DNA of 64,000 nucleotides from Marinicella marina (GTDB lineage Bacteria; Pseudomonadota; Gammaproteobacteria; Xanthomonadales; Marinicellaceae). Position 1 is the stretch's first letter. Each line of letters starts with the position of its first letter. Made by a program: the position numbers and the translations under genes. The stretch lies in NCBI RefSeq assembly GCF_030065545.1, contig NZ_JASJNC010000009.1, positions 1-64,000 of the forward strand, written 5' to 3'. Shown in pieces: positions 10,333 to 58,571 of this stretch. The notes under the pieces are model-generated. The model was not told where the DNA came from. It saw only the letters and a program-made list of their open reading frames with translations, and searched no databases.

Positions 10333-10510
10333 TTCACTCAATGCTGAAAATTCAATGGATGTTAAAAATTCATTGGATAAGACATCCTCAAGTTTTCATC
10401 ACCAAACCATGAGCCCAGCATCATTTTTATCAGCACTGTAATTCCTAACATATACACAGGTTTGAAAAACCCATGTTCAATTTTGTTTTATTTATTTGAA
10501 AGGAATTATT

Positions 10511-12160: not shown

Positions 12161-12241
12161 GTAGAGAGCCAGTGAACAGCTCTCAGTATAACTATAAAGT
12201 GAGGGCTGTTTTGCTGGGTGATTCAATCAAATGAGGAAGTT

Positions 12242-14268: not shown

Positions 14269-16011
14269 TTAAGTGGTTGCTTTTGGAATCCTGATTGATT
14301 CAACCAACTCTTGGATTTCTGCTGGTGGTGGGGCAGTGACTTTACTGACCACAAAGGCCACCACAAAGTTAAGGATCATACCCAAAGTACCTATGCCCTC
14401 AGGTGAGATACCAAACCACCAATGTTCGGCGTTGTTCAACTCTACGTTCAGGGTTTTGAAGTAGATGATATAACTCAAAGTGAAGACAATACCAACAACC
14501 ATGCCAGCAATCGCACCGGCTTTGTTGGCTCGTTTGGAGAAAATGCCCATCAAGATAGCAGGGAATAGGGATGAGGCTGCCAAGCCAAAAGCCAATGCCA
14601 CCACTTGGGCCACAAAGCCTGGCGGATTGGCGCCCAAGTAACCGGCCACGATAATGGCAAATGCGGCAGCAACACGTCCCACCATCAGTTCTTTCTTCTC
14701 TGAGATGCTTGGCATCAACATGCCTTTGACCAAATCATGAGAAATGGCTGCTGAAATTACCAGCAATAATCCCGCAGCGGTTGACAGCGCGGCGGCAATA
14801 CCACCAGCAGCAATCAATGCAATGACCCAGTTGGGTAATTGGGCAATTTCTGGATTGGCCAATACCATGATGTCGCGATCCACTTTTAATTCATTGCCTT
14901 GCCAGCCATAACTTTCAGCGGTGGCTTTGAAGTCTTGGTTTTTGTCGTTGTAGTACTGAATGCGGCCATCGCCATTTTTATCATCAAATGCCAACAAGCC
15001 CGTTTTTTCCCAAGTGGCGAACCAGTCGGGTTTTTTACTGTATTCCAAATTGCCAGCCACTGAGCCCACAGCGCCCGGTTGAATGGTTTCAATCAAGTTC
15101 ATGCGGCCCAAAGCGCCCACAGCTGGAGCGGTGGTATAAAGGATGGTGATGAAGAACAGGGCCCAAAAAGCCGATTTTCTGGCATCAGCCACCTTAGGCA
15201 CAGTAAAGAACCTAACAATCACATGCGGCAGACCAGCAGTACCAACCATCAATGCGGCAGTAATAAAAAACATGTCTACAGTACTCTTAGCACCATCGGT
15301 GTAGGCAGTAAAGCCCAAGGATTGAACCACATTATCTAGTTTAGTCAGTAAATACATGCCTTCACCAGTCATTTCGCTGCCAAAAGCAAGTTGTGGTACT
15401 GGGTTACCCGTGGCTTGGATGGAGATGAATATGGCTGGTACCATGTAGGCAAAAATCAACACACAGTATTGTGCCACTTGGGTGTAAGTGATGCCCTTCA
15501 TGCCGCCTAAAACCGCATAGAAAAACACAATGCCCATACCAATGATCAAACCAGTGACAATTTCTACTTCTAAAAAGCGTGAGAACACAATACCCACGCC
15601 GCGCATTTGGCCAGCTACGTAGGTGAATGAGATGATGATCAAACAAATCACTGCCACTATCCGCGCCGTTTTTGAATAATACCGATCACCAATGAATTGT
15701 GGTACCGTGAATTTTCCAAACTTACGTAAGTAGGGTGCCAATAACAGCGCCAGCAGCACATAACCGCCGGTCCAACCCATCAAATAAACCGAGGCATCAT
15801 AACCAGCAAAAGCGATGATACCTGCCATTGAGATGAACGATGCGGCTGACATCCAATCGGCCGCAGTGGCCATGCCGTTGGCAATCGGGTTAACACCTTT
15901 GCCAGCAATGTAAAAATCACCGGTGCTTTTGGCCTTTGACCAAATCGCAATGGCGATGTACAAAGCGAAAGAGAGAACAACAACGGTTATGGTTAAAGTC
16001 TTTAATTCCAT
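14269..16011 (-). CDS. actP: Sodium:solute symporter, ActP/VC_2705-type (probable acetate/monocarboxylate uptake)
   Basis: A 580-aa inner-membrane SSS-family transporter with about 13 membrane segments. Typical SSS stretches are KSTGDFYIAGKGVNPIANGM (about 29-48), AADWMSAASFISMAG and GMKGITYTQVAQY. A soluble insertion around residues 310-375 contains DDKNGDGRIQYY, an EF-hand-like acidic loop, ahead of LPNWVIALIAAGGIAAALST. The gene lies 2 nt after the DUF4212 small-subunit gene, the arrangement of the two-gene symporters next to crbS in other gammaproteobacteria. Acetate is the likely substrate from its place beside crbS and acs; other short-chain carboxylates remain possible. The symbol actP is used in the family sense. 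A CrbR-type box lies upstream of the operon. Confidence 0.85.
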   Translation of the reverse strand: MELKTLTITVVVLSFALYIAIAIWSKAKSTGDFYIAGKGVNPIANGMATAADWMSAASFISMAGIIAFAGYDASVYLMGWTGGYVLLALLLAPYLRKFGKFTVPQFIGDRYYSKTARIVAVICLIIISFTYVAGQMRGVGIVFSRFLEVEIVTGLIIGMGIVFFYAVLGGMKGITYTQVAQYCVLIFAYMVPAIFISIQATGNPVPQLAFGSEMTGEGMYLLTKLDNVVQSLGFTAYTDGAKSTVDMFFITAALMVGTAGLPHVIVRFFTVPKVADARKSAFWALFFITILYTTAPAVGALGRMNLIETIQPGAVGSVAGNLEYSKKPDWFATWEKTGLLAFDDKNGDGRIQYYNDKNQDFKATAESYGWQGNELKVDRDIMVLANPEIAQLPNWVIALIAAGGIAAALSTAAGLLLVISAAISHDLVKGMLMPSISEKKELMVGRVAAAFAIIVAGYLGANPPGFVAQVVALAFGLAASSLFPAILMGIFSKRANKAGAIAGMVVGIVFTLSYIIYFKTLNVELNNAEHWWFGISPEGIGTLGMILNFVVAFVVSKVTAPPPAEIQELVESIRIPKATT

Positions 16012-16013
16012 GA

Positions 16014-16271
16014 TTATTCCTCCACCCCAAATTTCTTATCGAGCTTGTTCATGCCCCTGACATAAACTGCAATAAGAATTAAAAAGACATAGAGTGCACC
16101 TTGTTGTGCCATCCAGAAGCCCAATTTGAAGCCAGCGAATTGAATTTGGTTGAGTTCATCAACAAAAACAATGCCGCACAAAAACGAAACAATGAACCAA
16201 ATGGATAACAACAACCCCATCAATTTGAGGTTGGCTTTCCAGTAGTTAGCATGATTGCTATTTGTAGACAT
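16014..16271 (-). CDS. DUF4212 small subunit of the sodium:solute symporter
   Basis: An 85-aa membrane protein with two transmembrane helices (LMGLLLSIWFIVSFLCGIVF and GALYVFLILIAVYVRGM) joined by FVDELNQIQFAGFKLGFWMAQQ, the conserved DUF4212 centre. It ends in a short charged cytoplasmic tail. Family members are always encoded just upstream of a VC_2705-type symporter and are thought to be an accessory subunit. The SD AGAGGATC precedes the ATG. It is first gene of a two-gene operon. Confidence 0.88.
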   Translation of the reverse strand: MSTNSNHANYWKANLKLMGLLLSIWFIVSFLCGIVFVDELNQIQFAGFKLGFWMAQQGALYVFLILIAVYVRGMNKLDKKFGVEE

Positions 16272-16329
16272 GTGATCCTCTTTTTAAATGAATTAGACCT
16301 AATGTAACAAAAGCACTGAACAATTAAAC

Positions 16330-16344
16330 TTAGACTTTGGTCTA
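16330..16344. promoter_or_regulatory. Candidate CrbR-binding box, symporter/crbS intergenic region
   Basis: TTAGACTTTGGTCTA, with perfect palindromic core TAGAC-TTTG-GTCTA. It lies 58 bp upstream of the DUF4212 gene, and on the minus strand TACATT (a possible -10) begins exactly 23 nt past it. Near-identical boxes sit at the same spacing before acs and the porin gene. Confidence 0.65.
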
Positions 16345-16500
16345 CGTGCTGCGGGCAGGATATCGTACTTGATCATTATTTTTTTGCTGGCGATTGTGCT
16401 GCCATGTATTTTATTTTGGTTTTTTCGCTCAAAAGCATCTTTACTTGATAGAATAATCTCATGAAATCAGCTGCTTGCCTGAATAAGCTCAACCAAAATC

Positions 16501-19500
16501 ATGTTCACTGAATATGCGGTTTACATCATATTGGTGCTGTATATGGCACTGATGTATGGCATTGCCCGTTGGGGTGATGGGCTGAACATACAGCACAAAC
16601 CTCGTTTGCGCAGTTGGGTTTACGGTTTATCCTTAGGGGTTTATTGCACCTCATGGACGTTTTTCGGTGCTGTGGGTACGGCTGCCAGTAAGGGCTGGGA
16701 TTTTTTGCCGATATACCTTGGGCCGCTGATTTTGTTTACAGTCGGCTGGCCATTGGTGGTGAAAATCATCACCTTAAGTAAAGCCAACAACATCACTTCA
16801 GTGGCTGATTTCATTGCCAGTTTGTATGGCAAATCTCGGCGGGTGGCGGTGTTGGTGACAATCACTGCAGTGGTGGCTTCTATTCCATACATTGCTTTGC
16901 AGTTAGAGGCCATTACCGCCAGCATCGACGTCATCAGTGAACAAGCTGATCACAGTGGCTCAAATGATTTTTACAGTGCTTTATTAATCACGGTGTTGTT
17001 GGCATTTTTTTCCACCATATTTGGTACCCGCAAGTTGGATGTGACTGAACACCACCGCGGTTTGATGCTCTCCATAGCTTTTGAATCGGCTTTGAAATTG
17101 TTGGCGTTTGTGGCAGTTGGGTTGTTTGTGGTGTTTGTGTTGTTCAAGGAGCCCCAAGCAGTCATCGCGCACGGCATGGCAGACCCTAAAGTAGCCGGTG
17201 GGCCAGTCCTTTCAATCAATTTTATGGCTCAGTCGATGTTGGCATTGATGGTGTTTATGTGTTTACCGAGACAGTTCCATGTCACCGTGATTGAAAATGA
17301 GAGCCGAACAGATTTGGGTAAAGCCAGATTGATTTTTATCCTTTATTTACTGTTGTTTACCCTGTTTGTGATACCCATCGCCTTGGCAGGTAGTGAATTT
17401 TTGGGTCAAAGTAGCCGGGCTGATTTGTATGTGTTGCAGCTACCGATGTATTACCAACAATCAGGTCTGACCTTGTTGGTGTTTTTAGGTGGTCTGGCGG
17501 CTGCCACAGGCATGGTCATCATCGCCACCATCGCTTTGAGTACCATGGTCAGTAACGATTTGATTTTGCCGCTGTATTTGCGTTTCAATCATTATCACTT
17601 GAAACACAAAGACGGCCTGCAACGGGTGGTGCTGTGGTCCCGCAGGGTCAGTATATTTGCCATCAGTTTCGCAGCTTTGGTGTTTTATGGCTTGGCGCAT
17701 GATAATGTGCCCCTGGCGGCCATGGGTAATTTATCCTTTTTATTGATGGTGCAATTTGCGCCAGCCATATTGTTGGGCATTTACTGGCAAAGGTCGAATA
17801 AACAAGCCGCTTTCATGGGCATGTTGGCGGGCGTTTGTGCTTGGTTTGTGATGGTCTTCTTTCCGGCGCCCATGGTTGGGGTTGCACAGACTGAATACGG
17901 TATTTTAACCAGCATGCTCCAACTGACCAGTGATCAACCGCCTATTTTTAAATTGTTTGGTGTGTCGGTATTGAGCAACATCGCCATGCACGTAGTTTAT
18001 GCTTTTATTTCTGGGTGGCTAAAACAGCCGCGGCGAGTGAATCGAACTGTGGATGCTGCCGCTGTCAGAGATGACTTGATTGTGGCTGATTTGAAGCAAC
18101 TGGTTGCTCGCTTGGTTGGGGAAGGTTTTGCCAATATATCATTCAATGAATTTGCGCAAGATTTGAACCATGAGCTCAGTGATGAAGAGACTGCCAGCCC
18201 ACAGCTGATTCAATTCACCGAGACTTTACTGGCAGGATCAATCGGTTCATCATCTGCACGAGCCGTGATGACCGCAATGTTACAAAGTAAAGGTTTGGCG
18301 GTGAATGAAATACTTGGACTTTTGGATCAGACCACCCAAGCGATTCAATTCAATCGCTCCCTGACTGAGGCGACATTGGATAATATCTCCCAAGGTGTCA
18401 GTGTGGTCGATGATAATTTGCGGTTGATTGCTTGGAATAAGCAGTACATTGAATTGCTAGAATATCCTGCAGATTTTATCAAGCGAGGTATGCCAATTGA
18501 ACATGTGTTGCGGTATAACCTCAAACGCGGCCTGATGCCTGCCGCAGAGAGTCAGCAGGAAATTGAAAAACGTTTGGTGTTGTTGCGACAAAGGCGCAGT
18601 TATCAAACAGAACGTGCCTTCGATAATGGCAGGGTGTTACAAATTGAGGGTCACCCCATGCCCAATGGCGGTTACGTTACCACATACAGCGATGTGACCC
18701 AATACAAGGCAGCCCAAGAAAAATTGATTGAAAGCCAAAAACAGATCCAACTTTACACCGATAATTCACCGGCGATGTTGGCTTACTTGAGTAAGCAACA
18801 ACGCATCATGTTCGTTAATAAGGCCTATGAACAGTTTATGGGACGTGAGCGCACCGAGTTGGTTGGGTCATCCTTAGCTGAGTTATTTGATGAAACGGAA
18901 TTGGCCAAACGTGAGCCCTATCTGCGCGCTGCTTTCGGCGGTGAAACCATGAGCTTTGAGATGTCCTTGGCTGATTATCAGGGTCAAGAGCACTTTATTC
19001 TGGGTACTTATGTACCTGATTGGCAACAAGACCAAGTTAATGGGGTGTTTGTGATCATGCAAGACATAAGCACCAGGCGCAAGGCAGAACTTGAGTTGAA
19101 ACAAGCCAAAGTTAATTTGGAGCAGCGAGTAGAACAGCGAACTGAAGCTTTGTCCATTGCAACAGAGCAAGCACAACAAGCCAATTTAAGCAAAACCAAG
19201 TTCATCGCAGATGCCAGCCATGATTTGTTACAACCATTCAATGCAGCCCGCTTATTCACCTCAATTTTGCGCGAACAAAGTGACCAACTGGAACCTGATG
19301 TGGCTGAGACTGTCTATAACCTAGATCATTCGCTGCGAGCAGCGGAAAACATGCTCAGTGCGTTGTTGGATATTGCGCAGTTTGATGCTGGGGGTGTGCA
19401 GATCAATCAAACCGATTTCTCACTGAATCAGCTGCTACAACAGTTGGCCGCTCAGTATCACCCCAGGGCGGCCAAAAAAGGACTTGATCTGCGGGTACAT

Positions 19501-20280
19501 GAGGTTGATTTTTGGCTCAAAACCGATGAAAAGTTACTTTATCGGGTGTTACAAAACTTAGTCAGTAATGCCATTCGTTATACTGAAAAGGGCGGGGTGT
19601 TGGTTACGGCTCGGCGACACCAAGGGCAAATACAATTGTGGGTGATTGATACCGGTGTCGGTTTGAATGATGATGAGCAAATTGAAATATTTAATGAATT
19701 CAAGCGTTTAAACAAAGTTGCTCAGGAACAGGACAAAGGATTGGGTCTGGGTTTGAGCATTGTTGATCGCATCGTCAAACAACTGGGTTTAGCTTTGACC
19801 ATCAGGTCAGTTCCTGGGCGTGGTTCATCTTTTGTGGTCACACTAGAGGAAGCAGTAGCACAGCAGTCCGGTGAGTTGGAGCCAACCAATGTGGCGACGT
19901 CTGGGCCTGTGGTGGCGGCGCAAAAACAAGTTTTGTGCATAGATAATGAACCTCAAATCCTCAAAGGCATGCAGCAGCTGTTAACCGGATGGGGAATGGG
20001 TGTGCAGTGTGTTGAGGGCTCGGTCGGGGCGATGGCTTTACTTGAGGCGGGCATGCGGCCAGATTTGTTGTTGGTTGATTATCAGTTGAATGATGAATTG
20101 GGTACCGATGTGGCCTCATCGTTGTTGCAACAGTTGCAATTAAATTGTCCGGTTGTTTTAATCACCGCTAACCATTCAGAGGCGCTGAAAACAGCAGCCA
20201 AGCAGGCTGGTTATCACTTGCTATTAAAACCGATCAAACCCATCAAACTCAGGCAAATGATCAATCAATTATTGCATTGA
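16501..20280 (+). CDS. crbS: CrbS-type hybrid sensor histidine kinase with SSS transporter-like sensor domain
   Basis: A 1259-aa inner-membrane sensor of the acetate switch. Residues about 1-500 form a 13-helix SSS domain (SWTFFGAVGTAASKGWDFLP; FHVTVIENESRTDLGKARLI). About 515-620 matches the STAC linker of such kinases. PAS domains follow at about 620-740 (LDNISQGVSVVDDNLRLIAW) and 740-860, then a short coiled coil. HisKA has phospho-acceptor His907 in IADASHDLLQPFNAARLF, HATPase_c has DKGLGLGLSIVDRI, and a C-terminal receiver (about 1140-1259) has Asp1193 in LLLVDYQLNDE. CrbS phosphorylates CrbR to activate acs in Vibrio and Pseudomonas. The gene is divergent from the symporter pair and convergent with crbR. 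The ATG lacks an obvious SD. Confidence 0.9.
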   Translation: MFTEYAVYIILVLYMALMYGIARWGDGLNIQHKPRLRSWVYGLSLGVYCTSWTFFGAVGTAASKGWDFLPIYLGPLILFTVGWPLVVKIITLSKANNITSVADFIASLYGKSRRVAVLVTITAVVASIPYIALQLEAITASIDVISEQADHSGSNDFYSALLITVLLAFFSTIFGTRKLDVTEHHRGLMLSIAFESALKLLAFVAVGLFVVFVLFKEPQAVIAHGMADPKVAGGPVLSINFMAQSMLALMVFMCLPRQFHVTVIENESRTDLGKARLIFILYLLLFTLFVIPIALAGSEFLGQSSRADLYVLQLPMYYQQSGLTLLVFLGGLAAATGMVIIATIALSTMVSNDLILPLYLRFNHYHLKHKDGLQRVVLWSRRVSIFAISFAALVFYGLAHDNVPLAAMGNLSFLLMVQFAPAILLGIYWQRSNKQAAFMGMLAGVCAWFVMVFFPAPMVGVAQTEYGILTSMLQLTSDQPPIFKLFGVSVLSNIAMHVVYAFISGWLKQPRRVNRTVDAAAVRDDLIVADLKQLVARLVGEGFANISFNEFAQDLNHELSDEETASPQLIQFTETLLAGSIGSSSARAVMTAMLQSKGLAVNEILGLLDQTTQAIQFNRSLTEATLDNISQGVSVVDDNLRLIAWNKQYIELLEYPADFIKRGMPIEHVLRYNLKRGLMPAAESQQEIEKRLVLLRQRRSYQTERAFDNGRVLQIEGHPMPNGGYVTTYSDVTQYKAAQEKLIESQKQIQLYTDNSPAMLAYLSKQQRIMFVNKAYEQFMGRERTELVGSSLAELFDETELAKREPYLRAAFGGETMSFEMSLADYQGQEHFILGTYVPDWQQDQVNGVFVIMQDISTRRKAELELKQAKVNLEQRVEQRTEALSIATEQAQQANLSKTKFIADASHDLLQPFNAARLFTSILREQSDQLEPDVAETVYNLDHSLRAAENMLSALLDIAQFDAGGVQINQTDFSLNQLLQQLAAQYHPRAAKKGLDLRVHEVDFWLKTDEKLLYRVLQNLVSNAIRYTEKGGVLVTARRHQGQIQLWVIDTGVGLNDDEQIEIFNEFKRLNKVAQEQDKGLGLGLSIVDRIVKQLGLALTIRSVPGRGSSFVVTLEEAVAQQSGELEPTNVATSGPVVAAQKQVLCIDNEPQILKGMQQLLTGWGMGVQCVEGSVGAMALLEAGMRPDLLLVDYQLNDELGTDVASSLLQQLQLNCPVVLITANHSEALKTAAKQAGYHLLLKPIKPIKLRQMINQLLH

Positions 20281-20285
20281 GCCAT

Positions 20286-20957
20286 TCATGCATCGCCCAT
20301 ATCAATGTTAGCCACTTTCATCACCGCTTGGGTGCGGTTATTGACCTCGAGTTTTCGCATGATGGCGGTCACATGGGCCTTGACTGTGGCTTCTGAAATG
20401 TCTAAATCATAAGCAATTTGTTTGTTCAGCAGGCCTTGTTTGATCATGCCCAATACTTTGAGTTGTTGGGGCGTTAATTCAGCCACTTGGCGCGTGGTCT
20501 CAGCAATGCCCTCATCTTGTGTGATGTAGGCTTGTTCGTTGAATTGGTATGGGAAGTAAATATCGCCTTTCAGTACAGTATTTAAACCTTTTCTGATGTC
20601 TTCTATACTGGCTGACTTGCTGACGAAACCCAATGCGCCGAAGTGTTTGGCATGCATGATGGTTTCTGGTTTATCGTTGGCTGAAATCATGATAATGGGC
20701 AAATCAGGATATTTCTTTTGCACAAATGCCAAAGCGGAAAACCCTTCAACCCCAGGCATATTTAGATCCAGTATCAATAAGTCAGCATCGTGGTGTTCAC
20801 GTAATTCAACGCGCAGCGTATCAGATGATTCAGCTTCAATGATTTGGCAACCATTTTGTTCCAAGTTCAGAGCGCCTCTGAGCGCATTCCTGAACATCGG
20901 ATGGTCATCGGCAATGATGATTTTATCAACGGCTATGTTATCAATGTCCCAATTCAT
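20286..20957 (-). CDS. crbR: CrbR-type response regulator (LuxR/NarL family)
   Basis: A 223-aa response regulator with a receiver domain at residues 11-130 (KIIIADDHPMFRNAL; phospho-acceptor Asp64 in LLILDLNMPGVEG; Lys in FVSKSAS) and a LuxR-type HTH at about 155-220 (LTPQQLKVLGMIKQGLLNKQ, EATVKAHVTAIMRKLEVNNR). In Vibrio and Pseudomonas this protein activates acs expression in response to CrbS. It starts 11 nt after the acs stop and is thus cotranscribed with acs, giving positive feedback. Its stop faces that of crbS with a 5-nt gap. It is the obvious candidate to bind the 15-bp boxes at 16330, 22973 and 28017. Confidence 0.9.
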   Translation of the reverse strand: MNWDIDNIAVDKIIIADDHPMFRNALRGALNLEQNGCQIIEAESSDTLRVELREHHDADLLILDLNMPGVEGFSALAFVQKKYPDLPIIMISANDKPETIMHAKHFGALGFVSKSASIEDIRKGLNTVLKGDIYFPYQFNEQAYITQDEGIAETTRQVAELTPQQLKVLGMIKQGLLNKQIAYDLDISEATVKAHVTAIMRKLEVNNRTQAVMKVANIDMGDA

Positions 20958-20968
20958 CGTTTGTTGTT

Positions 20969-22921
20969 TTACTTGTTTAGTCTGTTGTTGGTGAGGTGAA
21001 CCACCACTTCAGGTTCGGCCAAGGTCGAAGTATCACCCAATTGGTCATGTTCATTGGCCGCGATTTTGCGCAAGATGCGACGCATGATTTTACCTGAGCG
21101 AGTTTTAGGCAAGCCAGGGGCCCATTGGATTTTGTCCGGTGTGGCTATTGGGCCGATTTCTTTGCGTACCCATTTGACCAATTCCATGCGTAAGTCATCA
21201 GACTCACTGACACCACTGTTCAAAGTGACATAGGCGTAGATGCCTTGGCCCTTGATGTCATGGGGGTAACCCACCACAGCCGCCTCTGCCACGGCGTCAT
21301 GCGCCACCAAGGCACTCTCGACCTCAGCAGTACCCATGCGATGACCAGAAACATTCAGCACATCATCTGTACGACCTGTGATCCAATAAAAGCCATCGGC
21401 ATCTCGTTTGGCACCATCGCCGGTGGTATAAACACCATCAAAAGCAGAAAAATAAGTGGTGTAAAAACGGGCATGATCACCGAACACTGTGCGCATCTGT
21501 CCAGGCCATGAATCGGTGATGACTAAATTGCCACTGGCTTCACCAAATAATTCATTGCCGTCATTATCTAGCAGGGCAGGCATCACGCCGAAGAAGGGGC
21601 GGGTGGCTGAACCTGGTTTCAAATCGGTTGCGCCTGGTAAGGGTGTGATCATGATGCCGCCAGTTTCGGTTTGCCACCAGGTATCAACAATCGGGCAGCG
21701 TTCATCGCCAACCACTTCATAATACCATTTCCAAGCTTCTGGATTGATCGGCTCGCCAACAGAACCTAACACCCGCAAAGACTTTCTGGATGTGGCATTG
21801 ACTGGTTCATCGCCTTCTTTCATCAAAGCACGAATAGCAGTGGGGGCGGTATAACAGACGTTGACTTGGTGTTTGTCACAGACTTGCCAGAAACGACTGA
21901 AGTCCGGGTAATTGGGCACGCCTTCAAACATCAAGGTGGTGGCGCCATTGGCAAGGGGACCATATACCACATAGCTGTGACCAGTGATCCAGCCAATATC
22001 AGCGGTGCACCAATAGGTATCGCCTGGGTGGATGTCAAACACATACTCGTGGGTCATTGAGGCATAGACCAGATAACCACCTGAAGTGTGTAACACCCCT
22101 TTGGGTTGGCCCGTGGAACCAGAGGTATACAGAATGAACAAGGGGTCTTCTGCATTCATGATTTCGGGCTCACACTGGCTGCCTACGCCTTCACTGGCCT
22201 CATGGTACCAATGGTCATGAGCCTGCCAATTAACGGCTTCATCAGATGTCTTGATTACCAACACCGATTCCAAGTAATCTTTAACGCCAGGTTTTTCAGC
22301 GGCTTTATCCACGTTGGCTTTAAGCGGTATGGACTTGCTGCCACGCACGCCACGGTCGGCCGTGATGACTAACTTGGATTTACAGTTAATGATGCGGTCA
22401 CCCAGTGCATCGGGTGAAAAGCCACCAAACACCACCGAATGTATGGCACCAATGCGGGCACAGGCCAGCATGGCATAGGCCGCCTCAGGAACCATTGGCA
22501 TGTATAAAGTGACTCGATCACCTTTGCTGACACCGAGTTTTTTTAAGGTGTTAGCAAATACGCACACCTGCTTATGCAGCTGGGCATAAGTGATGTGTTT
22601 TGACTCATCGGGGTTATCTCCTTCCCATATGATGGCAGTTTGATCAGCCTTTTCCGGTAGGTGTCTATCGATGCAGTTGTAGGATACATTGAGTTCACCA
22701 TCAGCAAACCATTTGATGTGCAGGTCATCTTTGGCAAATGAAACATCTTTTACTTGGGTGTAAGGTTTATACCAATCAAGGCGTTGACCATGTTCAGCCC
22801 AAAAGCCTTCATTGTCCTCAATGCTTTGCTGATACATGGCTGAGTATTTTTCATTGTCACAAATCGCCTTTGCGGCAAACTCAGGATTAACTGGATACAG
22901 ATTTTTCATGGCAGAACTCAT
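20969..22921 (-). CDS. acs: Acetyl-CoA synthetase (AMP-forming)
   Basis: A 650-aa cytoplasmic enzyme that makes acetyl-CoA from acetate, ATP and CoA, full length for the family. Seen are the adenylate-forming P-loop [47 protein letters not shown] and the C-terminal catalytic Lys611 in [16 protein letters not shown], the residue acetylated for control in homologues. Start [10 protein letters not shown] is taken; the fifth codon is another ATG, and no strong SD separates the two. It heads the acs-crbR operon, with a candidate CrbR box 52 bp upstream and a poor -35, as expected of an activator-dependent promoter. Confidence 0.97.
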
Positions 22922-22972
22922 ATGGTTTTTTGCTTAAAAGCTTACTATGACATTGTTCGGTTTTTTATGGCA

Positions 22973-22987
22973 TTAGACCTTGGTCGT
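22973..22987. promoter_or_regulatory. Candidate CrbR-binding box upstream of acs
   Basis: TTAGACCTTGGTCGT, 13 of 15 positions identical to the box at 16330. On the minus strand CATAGT, a possible -10, begins exactly 23 nt past it, which would put the box at about -50 to -36. Confidence 0.65.
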
Positions 22988-23016
22988 AGGCAGCAGTCTT
23001 GTCACTGTTTTATGCA

Positions 23017-23430
23017 TCACTGCATGCCTGGAAAAGAGCTGACTTTTTTGACTTCAATGTCGGGAAATGAATCCACTACCTGGACTTTGAAATCAGGGAA
23101 CGAGTCAACTTCTTGCCATTGGCCGCAGTCATCAGGAAACGAGGAAACAAACTCAACATGAATGTCGGCAAAGGAGCTGACGTATTTGATTTTAAGATCA
23201 GGGAAAGAGTCGACGAATTGGACCTTGCCTTTGAGCTCGATGCCATTGTGATAACAAGATTTTTGTCGTGATTGGGAGGTGGTTTGTGTTGATGATTTAT
23301 TGGATTTCTGATGGCTGCTTTGTACCGGCATGACAGAATGCCTGGCACCGATGGGGCCTGAGTCCTCAAACAAGGCAATAAGTATGATGATGCTGATGAT
23401 AACAATCGCAATTTTCAAATCTTTGTCCAT
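23017..23430 (-). CDS. Membrane-anchored 7(1) septoil-knot-type repeat protein
   Basis: A 137-aa protein with an N-terminal membrane helix (about residues 6-22, IAIVIISIIILIALF), a Ser/Thr/Gln-rich linker to about 58, and a C-terminal domain of about 78 residues made of short repeats. Six units carry VDSFPD or variants (VQFVDSFPDLKI, KYVSSFADIHV, EFVSSFPDDCG, QEVDSFPDFKV, QVVDSFPDIEV, KKVSSFPG), and CYHNGIELKGK before them could be a seventh. Size and VDSFPD periodicity match my recollection of the septoil-knot (Septknot) family, described as a small 7(1)-knotted beta fold of unknown function. Two Cys (CYHN, DDCGQW) are present. No partner is evident; it sits alone between acs and the exonuclease gene. 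Confidence 0.7.
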   Translation of the reverse strand: MDKDLKIAIVIISIIILIALFEDSGPIGARHSVMPVQSSHQKSNKSSTQTTSQSRQKSCYHNGIELKGKVQFVDSFPDLKIKYVSSFADIHVEFVSSFPDDCGQWQEVDSFPDFKVQVVDSFPDIEVKKVSSFPGMQ

Positions 23431-23512
23431 GATGCCGCTCTTTTGTTGGTGTCTATTTATTTTATAAGTTTTAACGGTGACTGTCGATGAGAGATTTTCA
23501 GGGCATGTTGAA

Positions 23513-24202
23513 TTAACTGGTGATGTCTTTGAGTTTTACCGCTTTGTGCTGTTGTTGTCGGTGGCAGATTTGCGCCAGTAGCAATTCTGCCGTGGCGATG
23601 GCATCTTCCATCGCATTGTGAGCATGGTAACGCGGCAAGTTATAGTCGTTGCGCAAATTAAACAGGCGCAATTGATTGGCACCTATGGGGCGAAACAGCC
23701 GTTGCAGTTTTCTTCGTTCTATTTGTAGGGTATCGACCATCACCATAGGCAAGGCATGACCATACAGTTGTTCACTGATGCGTTGGATGAAGTTGTATTC
23801 TATGCTTTGGTAATGTGCCACCACCGCTTTACCAGCCATGTGTTGTAGTAATAAGTTCATCATGGCTTTGATGCCGATGCCTTGACTGACCTCATCATCA
23901 GTGATTTGGTGGATGCTGACATTGTCACTTTCGAGTTTTTTTTCAGTTTTGACCAAATGGTGTTGACTGCGATTGAGTTGCACCCGACCTTGACTGATTT
24001 CGGTGAAGCCGATACTGATGATATGGTCTCTTTGGTCATCCAAACCAGTGGTTTCAAAATCCAGCACCAAATAATCAACAGATAAGGCCGGTAGATTCAG
24101 GTCAACCAATGGCGTCATTAAATAATTTTTCAATTGACCCATTGGGTTCAGGCGCAGGGCACGATCAATCAGCTTTTGGTTTTTATTATTCCAGAACATC
24201 AA
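23513..24202 (-). CDS. DEDDh 3'-5' exonuclease (DnaQ/PolC-epsilon-like)
   Basis: A 229-aa cytoplasmic exonuclease. Exo I is LVLDFETTGL (Asp48, Glu50), Exo II is in VVAHYQSIEYNFI (an atypical motif in which the usual N-x3-F/YD form is replaced), and Exo III is HNAMEDAIATAELLL with the His and Asp of the DEDDh class. The N-terminal 40 residues precede the fold and are probably a linker. It starts 6 nt after the DUF294 gene and is cotranscribed with it, a pairing found beside acetate symporter genes in other gammaproteobacteria. The physiological substrate is unknown; it is too divergent to be the replicative epsilon subunit. Confidence 0.85.
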   Translation of the reverse strand: MMFWNNKNQKLIDRALRLNPMGQLKNYLMTPLVDLNLPALSVDYLVLDFETTGLDDQRDHIISIGFTEISQGRVQLNRSQHHLVKTEKKLESDNVSIHQITDDEVSQGIGIKAMMNLLLQHMAGKAVVAHYQSIEYNFIQRISEQLYGHALPMVMVDTLQIERRKLQRLFRPIGANQLRLFNLRNDYNLPRYHAHNAMEDAIATAELLLAQICHRQQQHKAVKLKDITS

Positions 24203-24208
24203 CTGCGC

Positions 24209-26068
24209 TTACATTTGGCCTTGGTTGTATTTCTTTGATAACACGTCTTGATAGGTGCTGATCAATTCAAATGCATCTTTCAGGTGCCGGCGTTCCAGCG
24301 AGGAGAGTTCGTTGGGATCAACATAGTTATCAGCGGCTTTGCCCAGTTTGATGTTTTTGACTTGGTGCTGCAGTCGCACCATGCTGAGAAATTCAAAACT
24401 GTCGACTAAATCTTCTGCAGCCTCCTGTGAAATAATACCAGCTGCTTCAGCGCTGCTTAACCGGTCGGCGGTATTAATCACTTCGGTACCGGCATCCAAA
24501 GCAAAAACCCGGGCAATATCAGTACAAGGCATGATGCCGCGTTTTTTCATGTCTAGGGCTTTGTTTTCTGCCCCATGTGATTCCAAGACGAAGCGACGAA
24601 ACAAACCCAAAGGTGGTTTGTTCTGCTGTGCATTGGCGGCCATGTATGCCAGAAAAATGCGGTTGTTTTTAATCATGGCGTGCACTTGTTGTTGCAGTGA
24701 TTGAAACAAACTCACATCGCCGTAAACACAGCGCAAATCGAAAAAGATACTGGAATACATCAAAGCCTTGGGCTCGGGTTGGTTGATCCAGCGATTGAAG
24801 TAAGACACCCATTGTTGCAGTGGCTGACGCCATTGGCTGTTGCTGGCCATAACATCTCCTGGGCACAACACATAACCACATTGGTTCAAGTCATTGGAAA
24901 CTGCCGCCGCGAGTTGTTCAAAATAGCTGCCATGAAGTTGTTCATCATACTCATCCGAAAGCAACAAGCCATTGTCTTGATCAGAGTGTGCTGTTTGGTC
25001 ATTGCGAGCCAATGAGCCGGCGACCATATAAGCGAAAGGAACGGGTGCCTTACCGAGTTTTTTCAGATTAAGTTTGATGACTTTTTGAATGATGGCACGC
25101 CCAATGGAACTGATCGAATAAGCGATGTCGTTGGCATTTAAATCAGCATCGACCATCTTGCATAAAGCCGTAGGCAGCTGAGCGCTGAGTTGTATCAATG
25201 TTTTTTGGTCATCGGCTTTGTGAATTTGATTAACCAGGTAAATGGGGTTGTGACTTTGGTGGTGAATCAAGTCAGTGGCAGTGATCATGCCCAGTAGTTT
25301 TTGGTCTTGAACCACGGGTAGATGCCTGACGTTCAAGCGTGTCATCAATAACATGGCCTCCAAGCCTGTTTGTTGTGGGCCAATGGTGATCACATCTTGG
25401 GTCATGATTTCACTGATGGCCACCTCAGTGTCCAGGGCTTGGGTCACCACTTTGGTACAAAAGACTCGGTCAGTTACTATGCCTTTGAGTCTGTTTTGTT
25501 CAGTGATCAAGGCAGCTGTTTGGTTGCTGTCACGCATCATAAGGGCAGTCTTACGGATACTGGTATTGGCAGGGATTCTCAAGGGTTGGTGGTGTAAGAA
25601 GTCGGCCACTCTGGATTTTATCAGGATGTTTTCTTGGCCAGTTTTGAGTTCGTTGATAGCGCTTTTCAGGCGTTGGTTTTTCTGTTGGCTGAAGTAGTTT
25701 TTGAAGTCATTGTTGCTGATCATCAGCTGCTGATAAACTGCATTGGGTATCAAGTAAAATAAACTGTCCTCTAGGGCAACTACTTTGTTTTTGATCAGGC
25801 CGCCGCGTTCCAGCGCTTTGTGGCCGAAAAAGTCCTGGCTACTGAACTGGGCCACCAAACCGTCCTGGTGGTCGGTTCTTTTCACGGCCCCTGAACGAAT
25901 CAGATAAAGCCATTGGTTCTGTGTTTCTGGTTCAAGAATGGTCTCACCACGGGCAGTGTAGGCTATTTCGATGGCCGCGGTTAACTGCTTCAATTCATCA
26001 GCGGTCAGTTTGTTCAATGGGTGGGTGTTTTGCAGAAAATCGTGAATTTCAAGTTGTTCTATTTCCAT
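24209..26068 (-). CDS. DUF294 protein: cNMP-binding, CBS pair and nucleotidyltransferase-like domains
   Basis: A 619-aa cytoplasmic protein in the order: cyclic-nucleotide-binding-like domain (about 10-130; GETILEPETQNQWLYLIRSG), two CBS domains (about 150-285; VTDRVFCTKVV, IMTQDVITIGPQQTGLEAML), DUF294 nucleotidyltransferase-like domain (about 300-430; GSLARNDQTAHSDQDNGLL, carrying the GS and acidic pair), and the DUF294 C-terminal substrate-binding-like helical domain (about 470-615). CBS and cNMP modules suggest adenylate sensing; homologues are thought to act like GlnD/GlnE-type signal transferases, but no reaction is established. It overlaps the preceding small membrane gene by 1 nt and is followed at 6 nt by the exonuclease gene. 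Confidence 0.88.
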   Translation of the reverse strand: MEIEQLEIHDFLQNTHPLNKLTADELKQLTAAIEIAYTARGETILEPETQNQWLYLIRSGAVKRTDHQDGLVAQFSSQDFFGHKALERGGLIKNKVVALEDSLFYLIPNAVYQQLMISNNDFKNYFSQQKNQRLKSAINELKTGQENILIKSRVADFLHHQPLRIPANTSIRKTALMMRDSNQTAALITEQNRLKGIVTDRVFCTKVVTQALDTEVAISEIMTQDVITIGPQQTGLEAMLLMTRLNVRHLPVVQDQKLLGMITATDLIHHQSHNPIYLVNQIHKADDQKTLIQLSAQLPTALCKMVDADLNANDIAYSISSIGRAIIQKVIKLNLKKLGKAPVPFAYMVAGSLARNDQTAHSDQDNGLLLSDEYDEQLHGSYFEQLAAAVSNDLNQCGYVLCPGDVMASNSQWRQPLQQWVSYFNRWINQPEPKALMYSSIFFDLRCVYGDVSLFQSLQQQVHAMIKNNRIFLAYMAANAQQNKPPLGLFRRFVLESHGAENKALDMKKRGIMPCTDIARVFALDAGTEVINTADRLSSAEAAGIISQEAAEDLVDSFEFLSMVRLQHQVKNIKLGKAADNYVDPNELSSLERRHLKDAFELISTYQDVLSKKYNQGQM

Positions 26069-26517
26069 CAGAATCTAACCTCTGACTCGGCAAAATAACC
26101 TTTGCCTTGGTATGAAAAAGCAATGCGAATGTGCTTGTATTTAGCAATGATATCATTGGGCTGCAGTTTAATTTGCCAGTATTTGTTGTCATCAGATTTC
26201 ATCATTTGGAATTGTCTGAATGGTTGTTTGTTATCAGTGAAAGCCTCTGCCATGCCTAAAGTTAAATGCTTAACTGGCTGGGTTGTTATCAGGGCCAGTT
26301 GTTGTTGTCCTTGTTGTTCATTGCTGATCAATTTCAGTTCAACAGCAGGGGATATAAACACACAAGCATTTTCTGTCGGTAAACAAGAGCCAGCCAGCTG
26401 CAGTTGGCCATATGTCTCATCGGCCTGTTTTGATGAAATGAAATAGCCAGCGCCTATGTATCCAGCAATGGCCAGCAATGGGGCGATAAAAAATGCAGTT
26501 TTTAAATGTCTGTTCAT
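26068..26517 (-). CDS. Conserved-type membrane-anchored periplasmic protein, unknown function
   Basis: A 149-aa protein not recognised as a named family. One N-terminal membrane helix (about residues 8-27, AFFIAPLLAIAGYIGAGYFI) is followed by a beta-rich periplasmic domain with two Cys (SCLPTENACVF) that could form a disulfide. Its stop overlaps the DUF294 start (ATG within the TGA context), so it is first gene of the DUF294-exonuclease operon. Two small ORFs on the opposite strand are shadows. Confidence 0.65.
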   Translation of the reverse strand: MNRHLKTAFFIAPLLAIAGYIGAGYFISSKQADETYGQLQLAGSCLPTENACVFISPAVELKLISNEQQGQQQLALITTQPVKHLTLGMAEAFTDNKQPFRQFQMMKSDDNKYWQIKLQPNDIIAKYKHIRIAFSYQGKGYFAESEVRF

Positions 26518-26557
26518 GTTTTGGCTTTTCTTTTGATTATACTTTTTTTAAACGCCA

Positions 26558-26579
26558 ACAGGGGCTTGATTGCCCCTGT
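26558..26579 (-). terminator. Hairpin downstream of the porin gene
   Basis: Stem ACAGGGGC/GCCCCTGT (8 bp), 6-nt loop, 24 nt past the porin stop. On the minus strand only three T occur some 5 nt after the stem, so it is a weak or atypical terminator. Confidence 0.5.
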
Positions 26580-26602
26580 GATTTCACTTTGATTGATGCA
26601 GT

Positions 26603-27943
26603 TTAAAAAGCATACTTGGCGCTGAAGATTAAGCGGTTTAATTCACCATCGGTGCCACTTTCAATTTCACGTTTACCATGCAAATAACCCATGCCCAGTG
26701 TTAACTTGGGTGCTGGTGAATACAACAGGTTAATTTGTGCACTTTGAGATGACTTGGTGACACCACCGCCGGTGTAATCAGCATCGTTATCGATGTCTAT
26801 GCGAGATAAGATGAAGTTTGAGCGCCATTGGTCGCTCCAATGGTGTCGATAAGCCACTGCCACTGCGGTTGAATCAATGGTGTCGAGTGAGCCGTTGTCT
26901 GTAACAACTGCGGCGTTGGCTGTGTTCAATGCCACATAGCGTCCCATGCCTGCACCAGAGGCCACGTTGAATCGAATGTCATCGCGATTGCCGAGCTTGT
27001 ATTTACCAGTCAGACTTAAGCCATAGGCGGCCTCACTGGTGTCATCACCGACGTTATCCAGTTCTAAGTAACGGAACAAGCCGGCCACTGCCAGATGCCC
27101 CCAGCCTGCTTTGTGGGTGTATTTAGCCACAAAGTCAGGTGCGCCGTTGTCGTCAGAGACAATGCGACCACCGCCGCCAAATGGGGTGAGGGTGGTTTCA
27201 GGGTTTTCCAAAGCCAATGACCATGGGCCTTTGCTGTACCTGACCATCGCTTGACGTTCAAATACGATGCCATCAGAGGCGGCCAAAAAGTCAGCAGATT
27301 CAGGTAGTGCGCCAACGTCTTGGAAAGTCGACCAAGTTTGGCCAAACAACCAGTCGTTGTAGGTAATGAATGCGTGCCTGATTCTGGGTTGGTAGGAGTT
27401 ACTGACTCGCTCGTTGCCGCTGGGTGCCAGTAAAAAATCCAACTCAATGAAAGTACCAATGTCATCACCATTGGCTAATTTGTGAGTGGTTTTCAAATTA
27501 AACCTGGTTTCTTTGGCATGAAAATCAAAGTCAGTGCCTTCCCCTTCGCCACCCACTGGAGTGGTGCCTGGGATATAGAAGTCTCGACCCACTGATCCAG
27601 CGGCCAAGTCACCATCACTGTAGGCTGAGAATGATGCGGTGGTTTTGACAAAGCCTCCGAATTTATAAGTGCTTTGAGGTGCTGCTGACTTTGCTTCTGC
27701 CTCAGCAGCTTTCGCTTCCGCCATTTCTTGGGCGGCTTTTTGTGCCTGAGCGGCTTGCATTTTCTCGGCTTTTTGTTCGGCTTGATCTTTTTCAGCCAAC
27801 TCTGCTTTTAAAGACATGAGCATGGTTTCCAAAGCGGTGATTTTGTCTTCTAATCTTTGAAATTCATCGCCTGAAGCGGCTGCATTGCCTGAAAACAAGG
27901 CCGTTGAGATGGCTGCAATCAGTAGTTTCTTTCTGGTTTTCAT
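26603..27943 (-). CDS. DcaP-type trimeric outer-membrane porin
   Basis: A 446-aa outer-membrane channel. The frame extends to 27955, but GGAGG precedes the ATG at 27943 by about 6 nt and MKTRKKLLIAAISTALFSGNAAAS is a clean signal peptide. Residues about 25-65 are a coiled coil (RLEDKITALETMLMSLKAEL) leading to an Ala/Glu/Gln-rich linker, as in DcaP homologues where the N-terminal helix trimerises. The barrel starts near YKFGGFVKTTASFSAYSDG and ends in the typical terminal Phe (FSAKYAF). DcaP-type porins admit small carboxylic acids. A candidate CrbR box 74 bp upstream suggests it serves acetate or related substrate entry, which is inference. Confidence 0.82.
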   Translation of the reverse strand: MKTRKKLLIAAISTALFSGNAAASGDEFQRLEDKITALETMLMSLKAELAEKDQAEQKAEKMQAAQAQKAAQEMAEAKAAEAEAKSAAPQSTYKFGGFVKTTASFSAYSDGDLAAGSVGRDFYIPGTTPVGGEGEGTDFDFHAKETRFNLKTTHKLANGDDIGTFIELDFLLAPSGNERVSNSYQPRIRHAFITYNDWLFGQTWSTFQDVGALPESADFLAASDGIVFERQAMVRYSKGPWSLALENPETTLTPFGGGGRIVSDDNGAPDFVAKYTHKAGWGHLAVAGLFRYLELDNVGDDTSEAAYGLSLTGKYKLGNRDDIRFNVASGAGMGRYVALNTANAAVVTDNGSLDTIDSTAVAVAYRHHWSDQWRSNFILSRIDIDNDADYTGGGVTKSSQSAQINLLYSPAPKLTLGMGYLHGKREIESGTDGELNRLIFSAKYAF

Positions 27944-28016
27944 TAACACCTCCAATATAAATGATGGTGTTATGATATTTAATAAATGGCATACAAGGTA
28001 TTAGCCATTGGTAGAT

Positions 28017-28031
28017 ACGACTAAAGTCTAA
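28017..28031. promoter_or_regulatory. Candidate CrbR-binding box upstream of the porin gene
   Basis: On the minus strand TTAGACTTTAGTCGT, 12 to 13 of 15 positions matching each of the boxes at 16330 and 22973. TATGCC begins 23 nt past it, the same distance as in the two other promoters, although that hexamer is a poor -10. Confidence 0.6.
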
Positions 28032-28046
28032 TAAAGTAAAACAGTG

Positions 28047-28340
28047 TTATTTTTTCATCACCATCACTGCCAAAGAAAAGACGTAAGCAGCCAGTATTTT
28101 TTCATCAAGTAATAAAGTCCTGCCATCTAACATCTGCATGGTGTCAGAGACGGTTTGAATGACCCCGCCCATCAATACCAGCATGGCTGCGGTGTGGGCT
28201 TTTTGTCGATTGATTTCTTTTTCGCCGATTCGATATGTTTTGTTCGATTGTTGTTGCAAGGCCAGTTTGAGACCCGTACCAGCCACAATCAATGACATGA
28301 ACAAGCTCAGGTATTCGCTGTAAAAGGGCAGTGCATCCAT
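28047..28340 (-). CDS. Small two-helix membrane protein, unknown
   Basis: The frame is open to 28550, but that would cover the SdpR gene and its promoter, so the ATG at 28340 (97 aa, MDALPFYSEYLSLFMSLIVA) is preferred. There are two predicted membrane segments: about 8-24 and 52-70, with a third hydrophobic end (ILAAYVFSLAVMVM). The middle has a basic stretch (NKTYRIGEKEINRQKAH). No family is recognised. It is divergent from the SdpR/SdpI operon with a 73-bp shared intergenic region. No SD is apparent. Its stop lies just beyond the porin promoter region. Confidence 0.5.
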   Translation of the reverse strand: MDALPFYSEYLSLFMSLIVAGTGLKLALQQQSNKTYRIGEKEINRQKAHTAAMLVLMGGVIQTVSDTMQMLDGRTLLLDEKILAAYVFSLAVMVMKK

Positions 28341-28413: not shown

Positions 28414-28707
28414 ATGAATGAGTCTAACCAACAAGCGTCGCTATTTACTGCCATTGCAGATGTGCAGCGACGCAAAATATTGGCCATACTTAAAGAACAG
28501 GAACTGTCAGTGGCAGACATCAAATCACATTTTGATTTCAGTGGCGCCACTTTGTCGCATCATTTAAGTATTCTTAAAAAAGCTGAATTGGTCAGGGTCA
28601 GAAGACAAGGACAACAACGCATTTACACCTTGAATTTAAGTGTGGCTGAGGAGTTGTTGTTGATAATGAAACAATTATTTAACAGAGAAAATGATGAAAT
28701 TGAATAA
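28414..28707 (+). CDS. ArsR-family autorepressor, SdpR type
   Basis: A 97-aa winged-helix repressor. The recognition region is SVADIKSHFDFSGATLSHHLS, followed by the wing VRVRRQGQQRIYTL. No metal-binding Cys is present, matching the SdpR subgroup, which is governed through its membrane partner SdpI rather than by metal. It overlaps the next gene by 17 nt, a translationally coupled sdpR-sdpI pair. The start lies 7 nt from a consensus -10, so translation probably begins on a leaderless mRNA. SdpR represses its own operon in Bacillus subtilis. Confidence 0.88.
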   Translation: MNESNQQASLFTAIADVQRRKILAILKEQELSVADIKSHFDFSGATLSHHLSILKKAELVRVRRQGQQRIYTLNLSVAEELLLIMKQLFNRENDEIE

Positions 28708-29341
28708 ACTTTTTATCTCGGTCGTAACTGTATTGATTGTCACTTGGGTGGTGGCAATTATGTATGAGCCCAAACTACCTGAACAAATTCCAACCCACTG
28801 GAACATCAAAGGTGAGGTGGATGACTACACCAGTAAGCCATGGGGTGTTTATATGTTGCCGTTAATTTCTACAATCACCAATTTATTGTTGTTCTTTCTG
28901 CCTAAAATAGCGCCGAAAGGATTTAAGTTAGAAGCCGCAAAAAAAGTCTATGAAATATTGATCATGGTGATGGCCGTTTTTATGTTGGCTGTGATGGTGT
29001 TGATGTTTGAGGCTGCTTTGAATAATGACATTGACATGAACAAGTGGATATTGGGTGGTGTTGGTTTGTTGTTTGTTATTATTGGAAACTACCTCAGTAA
29101 AGTCCCTAAAAACTTCTTTTTAGGCATCAGAACACCATGGACCTTGGCCTCAGATGAAGTGTGGTTCAAAACCCATAAATTGGGCGCTTGGGCTTTTGTG
29201 ATTTGTGGCTTATTGGTCATGATTGGAGCACTGTTGTCTTGGCCTGTTTGGCTAATGACGGGTTTGTTGATGGCAGCCGGATTCGTACCAGTGATTTATT
29301 CTCTGATTGTTTATAAGAAAATTGAAGGATTTTCAGACTGA
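28691..29341 (+). CDS. SdpI-family membrane protein
   Basis: A 216-aa membrane protein with about six helices. The N-terminal DUF1648 motif is visible as LPEQIPTHWNIKGEVDDYTSK, and the SdpI signature as NYLSKVPKNFFLGIRTPWTL followed by DEVWFKTHKLGAWAFVICG. In B. subtilis, SdpI gives immunity to the SdpC toxin and sequesters SdpR at the membrane. No sdpC-like toxin gene is seen here, so the pair may sense an external membrane-active compound. Two consecutive ATG codons (28691, 28694) are possible starts within the end of sdpR. Confidence 0.88.
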   Translation: MMKLNKLFISVVTVLIVTWVVAIMYEPKLPEQIPTHWNIKGEVDDYTSKPWGVYMLPLISTITNLLLFFLPKIAPKGFKLEAAKKVYEILIMVMAVFMLAVMVLMFEAALNNDIDMNKWILGGVGLLFVIIGNYLSKVPKNFFLGIRTPWTLASDEVWFKTHKLGAWAFVICGLLVMIGALLSWPVWLMTGLLMAAGFVPVIYSLIVYKKIEGFSD

Positions 29342-57929: not shown

Positions 57930-58571
57930 ATGATAAAAGTTTTATTGGTTGATGACCAAAATTTAGTGAGACAAGGTGTACAAGCTTTGTTGGATATAGC
58001 TGATGACATTGAAGTTATTGGTGAAGCAAAATCCGGGCAAGAAGCTTTGGTTATGGTGCCAGAATTGAATCCGGATGTGGTGCTGTTGGATATGCGCATG
58101 CCAGGCATGTCTGGCTTAGATGTTTTGCATGAGTTATCACAAGCTGATCAATTGCCTCCGACCATCATCTTAACTACATTTGATGATGAAGAACTTATCT
58201 TGGCCGGGGTCAAGGCTGGAGCCAAAGGTTATTTACTCAAAGATGTGCCTTTAGAGGAGTTGGTTGAGGGCATCAAACAGGTGGCTGAGGGTAAAACCAT
58301 AGTCAGGCCACAGATTACCAAGCGCATACTGGAAAGCGTAGAAGGTCTGAAGAATGACTTCATCAGTTTTGAAAGACCAGATCCATTGACTAACCGAGAA
58401 ACTGAAATTTTACGCTTGATGGCTGGTGGTTACAGTAACAAAGAAATCGCTAACTCAATTTTTGTAGCCGAAGGAACGGTTAAGAATCATGTTTCGAATA
58501 TATTATCAAAGCTGGGTGTTCGTGATCGGACACGGGCTGTGTTGAAAGCATTGGAATTAGGGCTGATTTAA
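57930..58571 (+). CDS. NarL/LuxR-family response regulator
   Basis: 213 aa. The receiver has DDQNLVRQGVQALLD, phospho-acceptor Asp54 (VVLLDMRMPGMSG) and Lys in GYLLKDVPL. The LuxR-type HTH is at about 148-210 (LTNRETEILRLMAGGYSNKE, AEGTVKNHVSNILSKLGVRD). It is partnered with the kinase 12 nt upstream. Targets are unknown; its stop directly abuts the miaE start, so it is cotranscribed with a tRNA-modification gene. Confidence 0.93.
   Translation: MIKVLLVDDQNLVRQGVQALLDIADDIEVIGEAKSGQEALVMVPELNPDVVLLDMRMPGMSGLDVLHELSQADQLPPTIILTTFDDEELILAGVKAGAKGYLLKDVPLEELVEGIKQVAEGKTIVRPQITKRILESVEGLKNDFISFERPDPLTNRETEILRLMAGGYSNKEIANSIFVAEGTVKNHVSNILSKLGVRDRTRAVLKALELGLI

Follow-up and report, generated by a model that had tools for sequence, protein, structure and literature searches.

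The ACTU motif was published and named in 2017 as an imperfect inverted repeat at positions -52 to -36 of the acs promoter of Pseudomonas fluorescens (Sepulveda and Lupas 2017, PMC5715377). According to the parts of that paper on which we draw, the motif is found in 91 of 112 promoters, which belong to four target families in 31 species, and activation by the response regulator CrbR, also in E. coli, requires the ACTU box and is lost when the box is mutated. Published matches are of the type TACTACCATCGTCGAAT / TACGACTAAAGTCTAAA, the PFLU0447 match TACGACTAAAGTCTAAA being a computer prediction. PFLU5625 is a known CrbR target, and its homologues have ACTU motifs in many species (Table 3 of PMC5715377). 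The P. putida CrbR, ErdR, gel-shifts several target promoters, more strongly when phosphorylated (PMC8402216); the portions of that study of MxtR/ErdR in strain KT2440 considered here contain no ACTU motif, no shift at acsA-I and no use of the word porin.

Here, we analyse the first 64,000 nucleotides of contig NZ_JASJNC010000009.1 of Marinicella marina (the window), which carry a CrbS/R locus together with acs, a DUF4212-symporter gene pair and a gene for a DcaP-family outer-membrane porin. Comparison with related genomes makes it very likely that this locus has four ACTU sites at three promoters, and that CrbR activates a porin operon along with the acetate genes from a box proximal to the porin. 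The motif and its regulator are known; the porin is a new, predicted target. An earlier note on this DNA had proposed a box shared by the three promoters, CrbR as its binder and the porin as a member of the CrbS/R regulon, all of which our results support. It had missed the 2017 publication of the motif, the proximal porin box, and the PFLU5625-like gene behind the porin promoter.

Box letters, coordinates and spacing were read directly from the window sequence. The genes for DUF4212, acs and the porin are all on the minus strand, as are the following sites. The DUF4212-symporter promoter has its box at 16330-16344 (TAGACCAAAGTCTAA along the gene strand), followed after 23 nucleotides (nt) by the -10 hexamer TACATT (16301-16306), and the acs promoter has its box at 22973-22987 (ACGACCAAGGTCTAA along the gene strand), followed at the same distance by CATAGT (22944-22949); both hexamers are TGn-extended. 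Two boxes precede the porin, namely: the gene-oriented proximal box TCTACCAATGGCTAA (28001-28015), 23 nt before the -10 hexamer TATCAT (27972-27977), and, 16 base pairs (bp) further upstream and reversed relative to the gene, the distal box TTAGACTTTAGTCGT (28017-28031), 23 nt from TATGCC (27988-27993). The three boxes reported before, i.e. all but the proximal one, and their distances of exactly 23 nt to TACATT, CATAGT and TATGCC are exact in the sequence, and their ends lie 58 nt (DUF4212), 51 nt (acs) and 73 nt (distal porin box) before the start codons, within the 50-75 bp that had been given. It should be noted that TTAGACTTTGGTCTA (16330) and TTAGACCTTGGTCGT (22973) had been quoted in plus-strand spelling and TTAGACTTTAGTCGT in minus-strand spelling; since the genes are on the minus strand, the distal porin box is oriented opposite to the acs and DUF4212 boxes. 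At a spacing of 17, only 1-2 of 6 bases of a -35 hexamer are matched at the three promoters, and the acs promoter has a 4/6 match at a spacing of 18.

Judged by sequence and position, these boxes are the ACTU motif, a known motif with a known regulator. They are imperfect inverted repeats that, in the case of the acs, DUF4212 and proximal porin boxes, end at about -36, just upstream of a presumed RpoD promoter, with the start sites here estimated from the hexamers, and cover about -50 to -36, as compared with -52 to -36 in the published regulon of Pseudomonas and other Gammaproteobacteria. Such a location fits a class II-like activator position, as had been proposed. Furthermore, the predicted PFLU0447 match TACGACTAAAGTCTAAA contains an exact copy of the reverse complement of the distal porin box. 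As far as the regulon is described in the parts of PMC5715377 used here, the kinds of target in common are acs, a symporter of the acetate type together with its small partner, and a gene like PFLU5625. Unlike that regulon, the present locus has a DcaP-family porin at the head of the PFLU5625-like operon, as well as a GGC-type proximal box with a reversed second box 16 bp upstream.

All 15-mers of the window were scored on both strands with a held-out matrix trained on 24 acs and DUF4212 boxes of other genomes, this genome (G000) being excluded; an earlier matrix had included it. The sites at 16330, 28017 and 22973 rank first to third (24.1, 20.1 and 17.4 bits), while the best of 20 random Markov windows reaches 17.1 bits and the mean best score is 13.0 bits. 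The proximal porin box ranks fourth with 14.0 bits, an ordinary score for a random window, so that its case rests on position and conservation. With up to three mismatches, 19 matches are present in the window against 9.3 expected, a number reached in 1 of 100 shuffles. The pattern TAGACYWTRGTCKW has three exact matches in the 3.46-Mb genome, which are the three reported boxes from which the pattern itself was derived, and KACYAWDGKCKAA has 14, of which the four at this locus are intergenic. The other ten each lie inside an open reading frame (ORF) of more than 120 codons and were rejected as regulon members. Weaker members may exist among one-mismatch sites elsewhere in the genome; in nine stretches of this genome around mismatched TAGACYWTRGTCKW sites (L065-L073), none of the genes of the locus is found.

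To follow the arrangement in relatives, we used the 30 of 66 acs matches for which locus sequence was at hand and scanned all 20 DUF4212 matches, counting spacing only in promoters with a best score of at least 9. Among CrbR-bearing genomes of the Marinicella family, a hexamer of the form xAxxxT lies at exactly 23 nt from the box in 7 of 8 scored acs promoters and 8/8 scored DUF4212 promoters, and the same holds for 6/6 scored DUF4212 promoters from other families of the order. In addition, family promoters with a box have the dinucleotide TG one base before the hexamer, i.e. an extended -10, at acs (8/9, G029 included) and at DUF4212 (8/8). This TG is present at none of four neighbouring offsets and played no part in the selection of sites; elsewhere in the order it is rarer (0/3 acs and 3/6 DUF4212 promoters).

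The porin promoter conserves the same arrangement, with the proximal box in place of the box first reported. A search of 61 genomes gave 24 with the porin at E<=1e-10, of which 9 are among the 33 genomes of the Marinicella family. Of 29 porin matches, 25 entered the promoter analysis; the four weakest were left out, and among these L034-L036 have no box match with up to two mismatches and L031 has one weak match. Using a matrix for which only acs and DUF4212 promoters served as the training set, we find a gene-oriented box before the porin in all nine porin-bearing family genomes, ending 55-62 nt before the ATG start codon in each. The hexamer xAxxxT is exactly 23 nt from this box in eight of them, and the ninth has TAACAT at 24 nt. 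In 20,000 random 300-nt windows drawn from this genome and three relatives, 1.3% reach the lowest score of the family porin promoters, and 0.09% reach that score and also have an xAxxxT hexamer.

The earlier note had instead taken the distal box with TATGCC as the porin promoter. That box is the higher-scoring porin site (20.1 bits) and lies exactly 23 nt from TATGCC, but its orientation is opposite to that of the acs and DUF4212 boxes, and it is absent from three of nine relatives that keep the proximal box. In the six family genomes that have it, always 16 bp further upstream and reversed, the hexamers at 23 nt are TATGCC, CATATT, ACTTCA, TCTTCA, TCACCT and TCTCTC, i.e. xAxxxT in only one of six. 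TATGCC was thus rejected as the porin -10 for lack of conservation, and activation of the porin from the 28017-28031 box with this hexamer is very unlikely. The conserved pair is 28001-28015 with TATCAT. Of the claimed 23-nt arrangement, then, the acs and DUF4212 parts stand and the porin part does not; likewise, box conservation before orthologues, which had been suggested as a check, holds for acs, DUF4212 and the porin when the proximal box is considered (9/9), while the porin box reported at the time is kept in only 6/9.

The two porin boxes together form an inverted repeat, and could in principle be an RNA hairpin or terminator of a short upstream ORF ending at 28047 rather than regulator sites. 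The predicted RNA fold is good in G004 (z -5.2) and G014 (z -3.8) and less so in G007 (-2.4), G017 (-2.0) and G009 (-1.8). It is, however, ordinary in the window (z -1.2) and lacking in G003 (+1.3) and G028 (-0.4); of the two arms, G003, G028 and G030 have only the lower, no U run follows the inverted repeat, and both arms score with the matrix built from acs and DUF4212 boxes. This explanation was rejected on the fold z-scores across relatives and is extremely improbable. The G030 acs promoter has a reversed partner at -16 as well (17.0 bits), and the G004 DUF4212 promoter a weak one (9.9 bits), which favours a real second site. We conclude from these comparisons that the proximal box is most likely the promoter-activating CrbR site of the porin, and that the distal box is probably an auxiliary CrbR site.

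The proximal porin boxes differ from those of the other two promoters in the right half. This half-box is GTC or GTA in 12/12 acs and 14/14 DUF4212 boxes, a uniformity that is partly built in, given that the matrix was trained on them; among 23 porin promoters it is GGC in 16, GTC in 3, GGT in 2, and GAC and GAA in 1 each. The porin -10 hexamers of the family, namely: TATCAT, TAACAT, TAATAT, TAGAAT and TATTAT, are better than those of acs and DUF4212, and the TG is present in 1/9. A weaker-scoring GGC box combined with a better -10 would amount to tuning of the porin promoter. The pair of designs, a GTC box with a weak extended -10 and a GGC box with a better -10, offers a testable case of one activator setting different outputs.

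The presence of the box and of the porin follows that of CrbR. A close CrbR (E<1e-50) is encoded in 10 of the 33 family genomes, and the porin is present in 9/10 of these and in 0/23 of the others (Fisher 2.6e-7, not corrected for kinship). Records of Marinicella meishanensis and M. sediminis also contain a close porin. Of 21 acs promoters in the family, the box is found in 8/9 from genomes with a close CrbR and in 1/12 from genomes without (p 0.0004); G016, for example, has an Acs that is 90% identical, no acs box and no close CrbR. All eight CrbR-bearing family genomes with DUF4212 have the DUF4212 box, which is absent in G012, a genome with DUF4212 and no close CrbR. Overall, the box is present in 14/20 DUF4212 promoters, and a close CrbR (E<1e-40) accompanies it in all of these genomes but G047 (13/14). 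The six promoters that lack the box are those of G012, G039, G041 and G049, which have no close CrbR, and of G042 and G054, where the DUF4212 gene comes after the porin gene. The family genomes with CrbS are those with CrbR, save for the fragmented G014.

CrbR is therefore likely the protein that binds the box here, in view of the published ACTU match, the position and the distribution of the acs box. The window also encodes a second NarL-type response regulator (57933-58559, plus strand), which is 28% identical to CrbR and has similar counterparts in many family genomes. Binding of the box by such a LuxR-type regulator in place of CrbR would accommodate G047 and G029, where the box is present and CrbR was not found. 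Yet the acs box follows CrbR in the family, and counterparts of the 28%-identical regulator are present in boxless family genomes, e.g. G001, G002 and G006, making this alternative highly improbable.

The gene neighbourhood likewise associates the porin with acetate genes. The gene order in the window is porin, a 149-amino-acid (aa) protein, a cNMP-binding/CBS/DUF294 protein, an exonuclease, a 137-aa protein, acs and crbR, then crbS and the DUF4212-symporter pair. Over the stretch compared, G003, G004 and G017 have the same order. The 149-aa gene follows the porin in eight of the nine porin-bearing family genomes, and in the ninth (G009) the contig ends 86 bases past the porin. The 137-aa gene keeps its place before acs in G003, G004, G007 and G017. 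Fifteen genomes of other families of the order have the porin, and 14 of these were examined for neighbours, the weak porin match of G047 being left aside: in 12 of them the porin and acs genes point away from each other on either side of a single short intergenic region, in G042 the porin precedes the DUF4212-symporter, and in G051 some 7 kb separate it from acs, with a CrbS-type kinase nearby. In G054 and, outside the order, in G097, the porin and DUF4212-symporter genes stand in a row, divergent from acs. A porin-facing site scoring 10 bits or more is present at 14 of the 16 porin loci scanned in these other families; the two without are second copies (G044 and G055) with no acs on the stretch compared. 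Outside the order, a search of 143 genomes (E<=1e-25) gave seven with the porin, four of which have acs within the 1.5-kb flank; a second porin copy in G198 has a site without a hexamer.

The promoter could alternatively serve the PFLU5625-like gene, with the porin a mere passenger in front of it. This gene is two genes downstream of the porin, its PFLU5625 relatives have ACTU motifs as cited above, and G042 has a gene of weak similarity (23% identity) behind porin-DUF4212-symporter on the same strand. In G007 (CALDFB010000023.1, L037 1674-2657), however, the porin, its boxes and the 149-aa gene are present, but the 149-aa and 137-aa genes have neither the PFLU5625-like nor the exonuclease gene between them, and the PFLU5625-like gene was not found in the genome. 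It occurs, moreover, on the compared stretch in only 3/14 genomes of other families (G042, G045 and G054), and never directly behind the porin. We consider the passenger explanation unlikely. The porin as a CrbR target is well supported by conservation, co-occurrence and neighbourhood.

Several observations weigh against CrbR control of the porin through these boxes. G004 has CrbR and the porin box and no acs box, and G018 has CrbR and CrbS and no porin. G029 (74% complete) has an acs box, and G047 (98% complete, from elsewhere in the order) has a DUF4212 box with TAGATT at 23 nt; CrbR was not found in either, nor CrbS in G047, where 48 of 75 CrbR candidates were scored. Because the genes of the locus are linked, co-occurrence may reflect the loss or gain of one block. 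The replacement of GTC by GGC in 16/23 porin promoters means that the affinity of CrbR may be low there. In the other families of the order, xAxxxT is at exactly 23 nt in only 8/16 porin loci, and since a single intergenic region mostly serves both the porin and acs there, boxes are not always assignable to one gene; outside the order, a porin-facing box with a -10-like hexamer at 23 nt is found in only 1/7 genomes (G097). Neither pattern is enriched genome-wide: TAGACYWTRGTCKW with up to two mismatches has 223 matches versus 863 for its reversed control, and KACYAWDGKCKAA has 14 versus 17. Of the ten KACYAWDGKCKAA matches within ORFs, two likewise have an xAxxxT hexamer 23 nt away. Finally, the ErdR model NF041830 is the best NCBIfam match of the CrbR encoded here, but its 225.7 bits are below the cut-off of 390, and the protein is therefore named CrbR-type and not assigned to that model.

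In the mechanism that we propose, the published part is that CrbR relays the response of CrbS to acetate or a related signal. Phosphorylated CrbR would bind, probably as a dimer, at about -50 to -36, beside a weak -35 region, and would recruit RNA polymerase as class II activators do. At acs and DUF4212, a strong box with a GTC right half would work with a weak TGn-extended -10, and at the porin operon the weaker gene-oriented box with a GGC right half (28001-28015) would work with the better -10 TATCAT, where a second CrbR dimer probably sits on the reversed box 16 bp upstream. The putative porin operon, comprising the porin, 149-aa, PFLU5625-like and exonuclease genes, would thereby be induced along with the genes for acetate uptake and activation.

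As the porin genes sit with acs or the DUF4212 symporter, we give about an even chance to a broader proposal: that a group of DcaP porins, in the Marinicella order and some other Gammaproteobacteria, is an outer-membrane acetate gate, driven by CrbR via a dedicated, tuned GGC-type ACTU box to which a reversed box at 16 bp is often added in Marinicella. If this is true, the entry, uptake and activation of acetate are all set by one regulator. With a conserved porin controlled by CrbR, acetate use would gain an outer-membrane step, and the role of DcaP-family proteins would extend past di- and tricarboxylates. The Acinetobacter DcaP porins (PMC12338516; PDB 6eus), which belong to the same Pfam family and are linked to carboxylic acid use, are needed for di- and tricarboxylic acids, as stated in the parts of that paper used here, so that a cargo other than acetate is possible for the present porin; the words acetate and CrbR are absent from the text of PMC12338516. 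In the open-access literature, most subscription journals being outside the search, we found no link between a DcaP porin and CrbR. The word porin occurs once in the CrbS/R papers searched by text, in the reference list of PMC5715377. The nearest published link is in a review (PMC12997753), of which the sections consulted describe a P. putida ped-cluster porin thought to carry short-chain alcohols, and mention a proposal that in P. aeruginosa CrbRS acts upstream of some ped regulators and activates them.

The gene assignments are as follows. The porin (26603-27943, minus strand) matches PF19577 (E=9.6e-25; 87.9 bits against a gathering score of 27; positions 42-410 of the 410 in the model covered) and the DcaP-like structure PDB 6eus (E=1.3e-18). 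Behind it on the same strand are the 149-aa gene (26068-26517), second in the putative operon; the cNMP-binding/CBS/DUF294 gene (24209-26068), whose Pfam domains are as described for PFLU5625 in the cited portion of PMC5715377; the RNase_T/DnaQ-type exonuclease gene (23513-24202; PF00929), last in the putative operon; and the 137-aa gene (23017-23430), with repeated V-x-SFPD motifs. Neither the 149-aa nor the 137-aa protein has a Pfam or NCBIfam match. The acetate-CoA ligase gene acs (20969-22921, minus strand) is above the cut-off of TIGR02188 and, judging from its relatives, may begin at the Met at residue 5. The CrbR/ErdR-type regulator (20286-20957, minus strand), with receiver and LuxR/GerE domains, is encoded directly behind acs. 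The CrbS-type hybrid kinase (16501-20280, plus strand) has an SLC5 (SSF) domain fused to PAS, HisKA, HATPase and receiver domains; no match to the STAC linker turned up in its domain scan, although no search aimed at STAC was made. In the direction of crbS, on the plus strand, the hexamer 23 nt from the 16330 box is CTTGAT, not xAxxxT, so that self-regulation of crbS from this box is unsupported. The small symporter subunit (DUF4212; 16017-16271, minus strand) matches PF13937 and is above the cut-off of TIGR03647, and the large subunit (14269-16011, minus strand) is a VC_2705-family sodium/solute symporter (TIGR03648, 868.8 bits, above cut-off), the ActP models being below theirs.

Upstream of the porin, on the other strand, 28414-29341 (plus) encodes an ArsR-type regulator and a membrane protein, which we take to be SdpI-like; their place is kept in G003, G004, G014 and G017. 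According to the ORF list, 10496-14185 (plus strand) encodes two secreted-looking proteins with similar tails (IFADGFED and IIFADSF).

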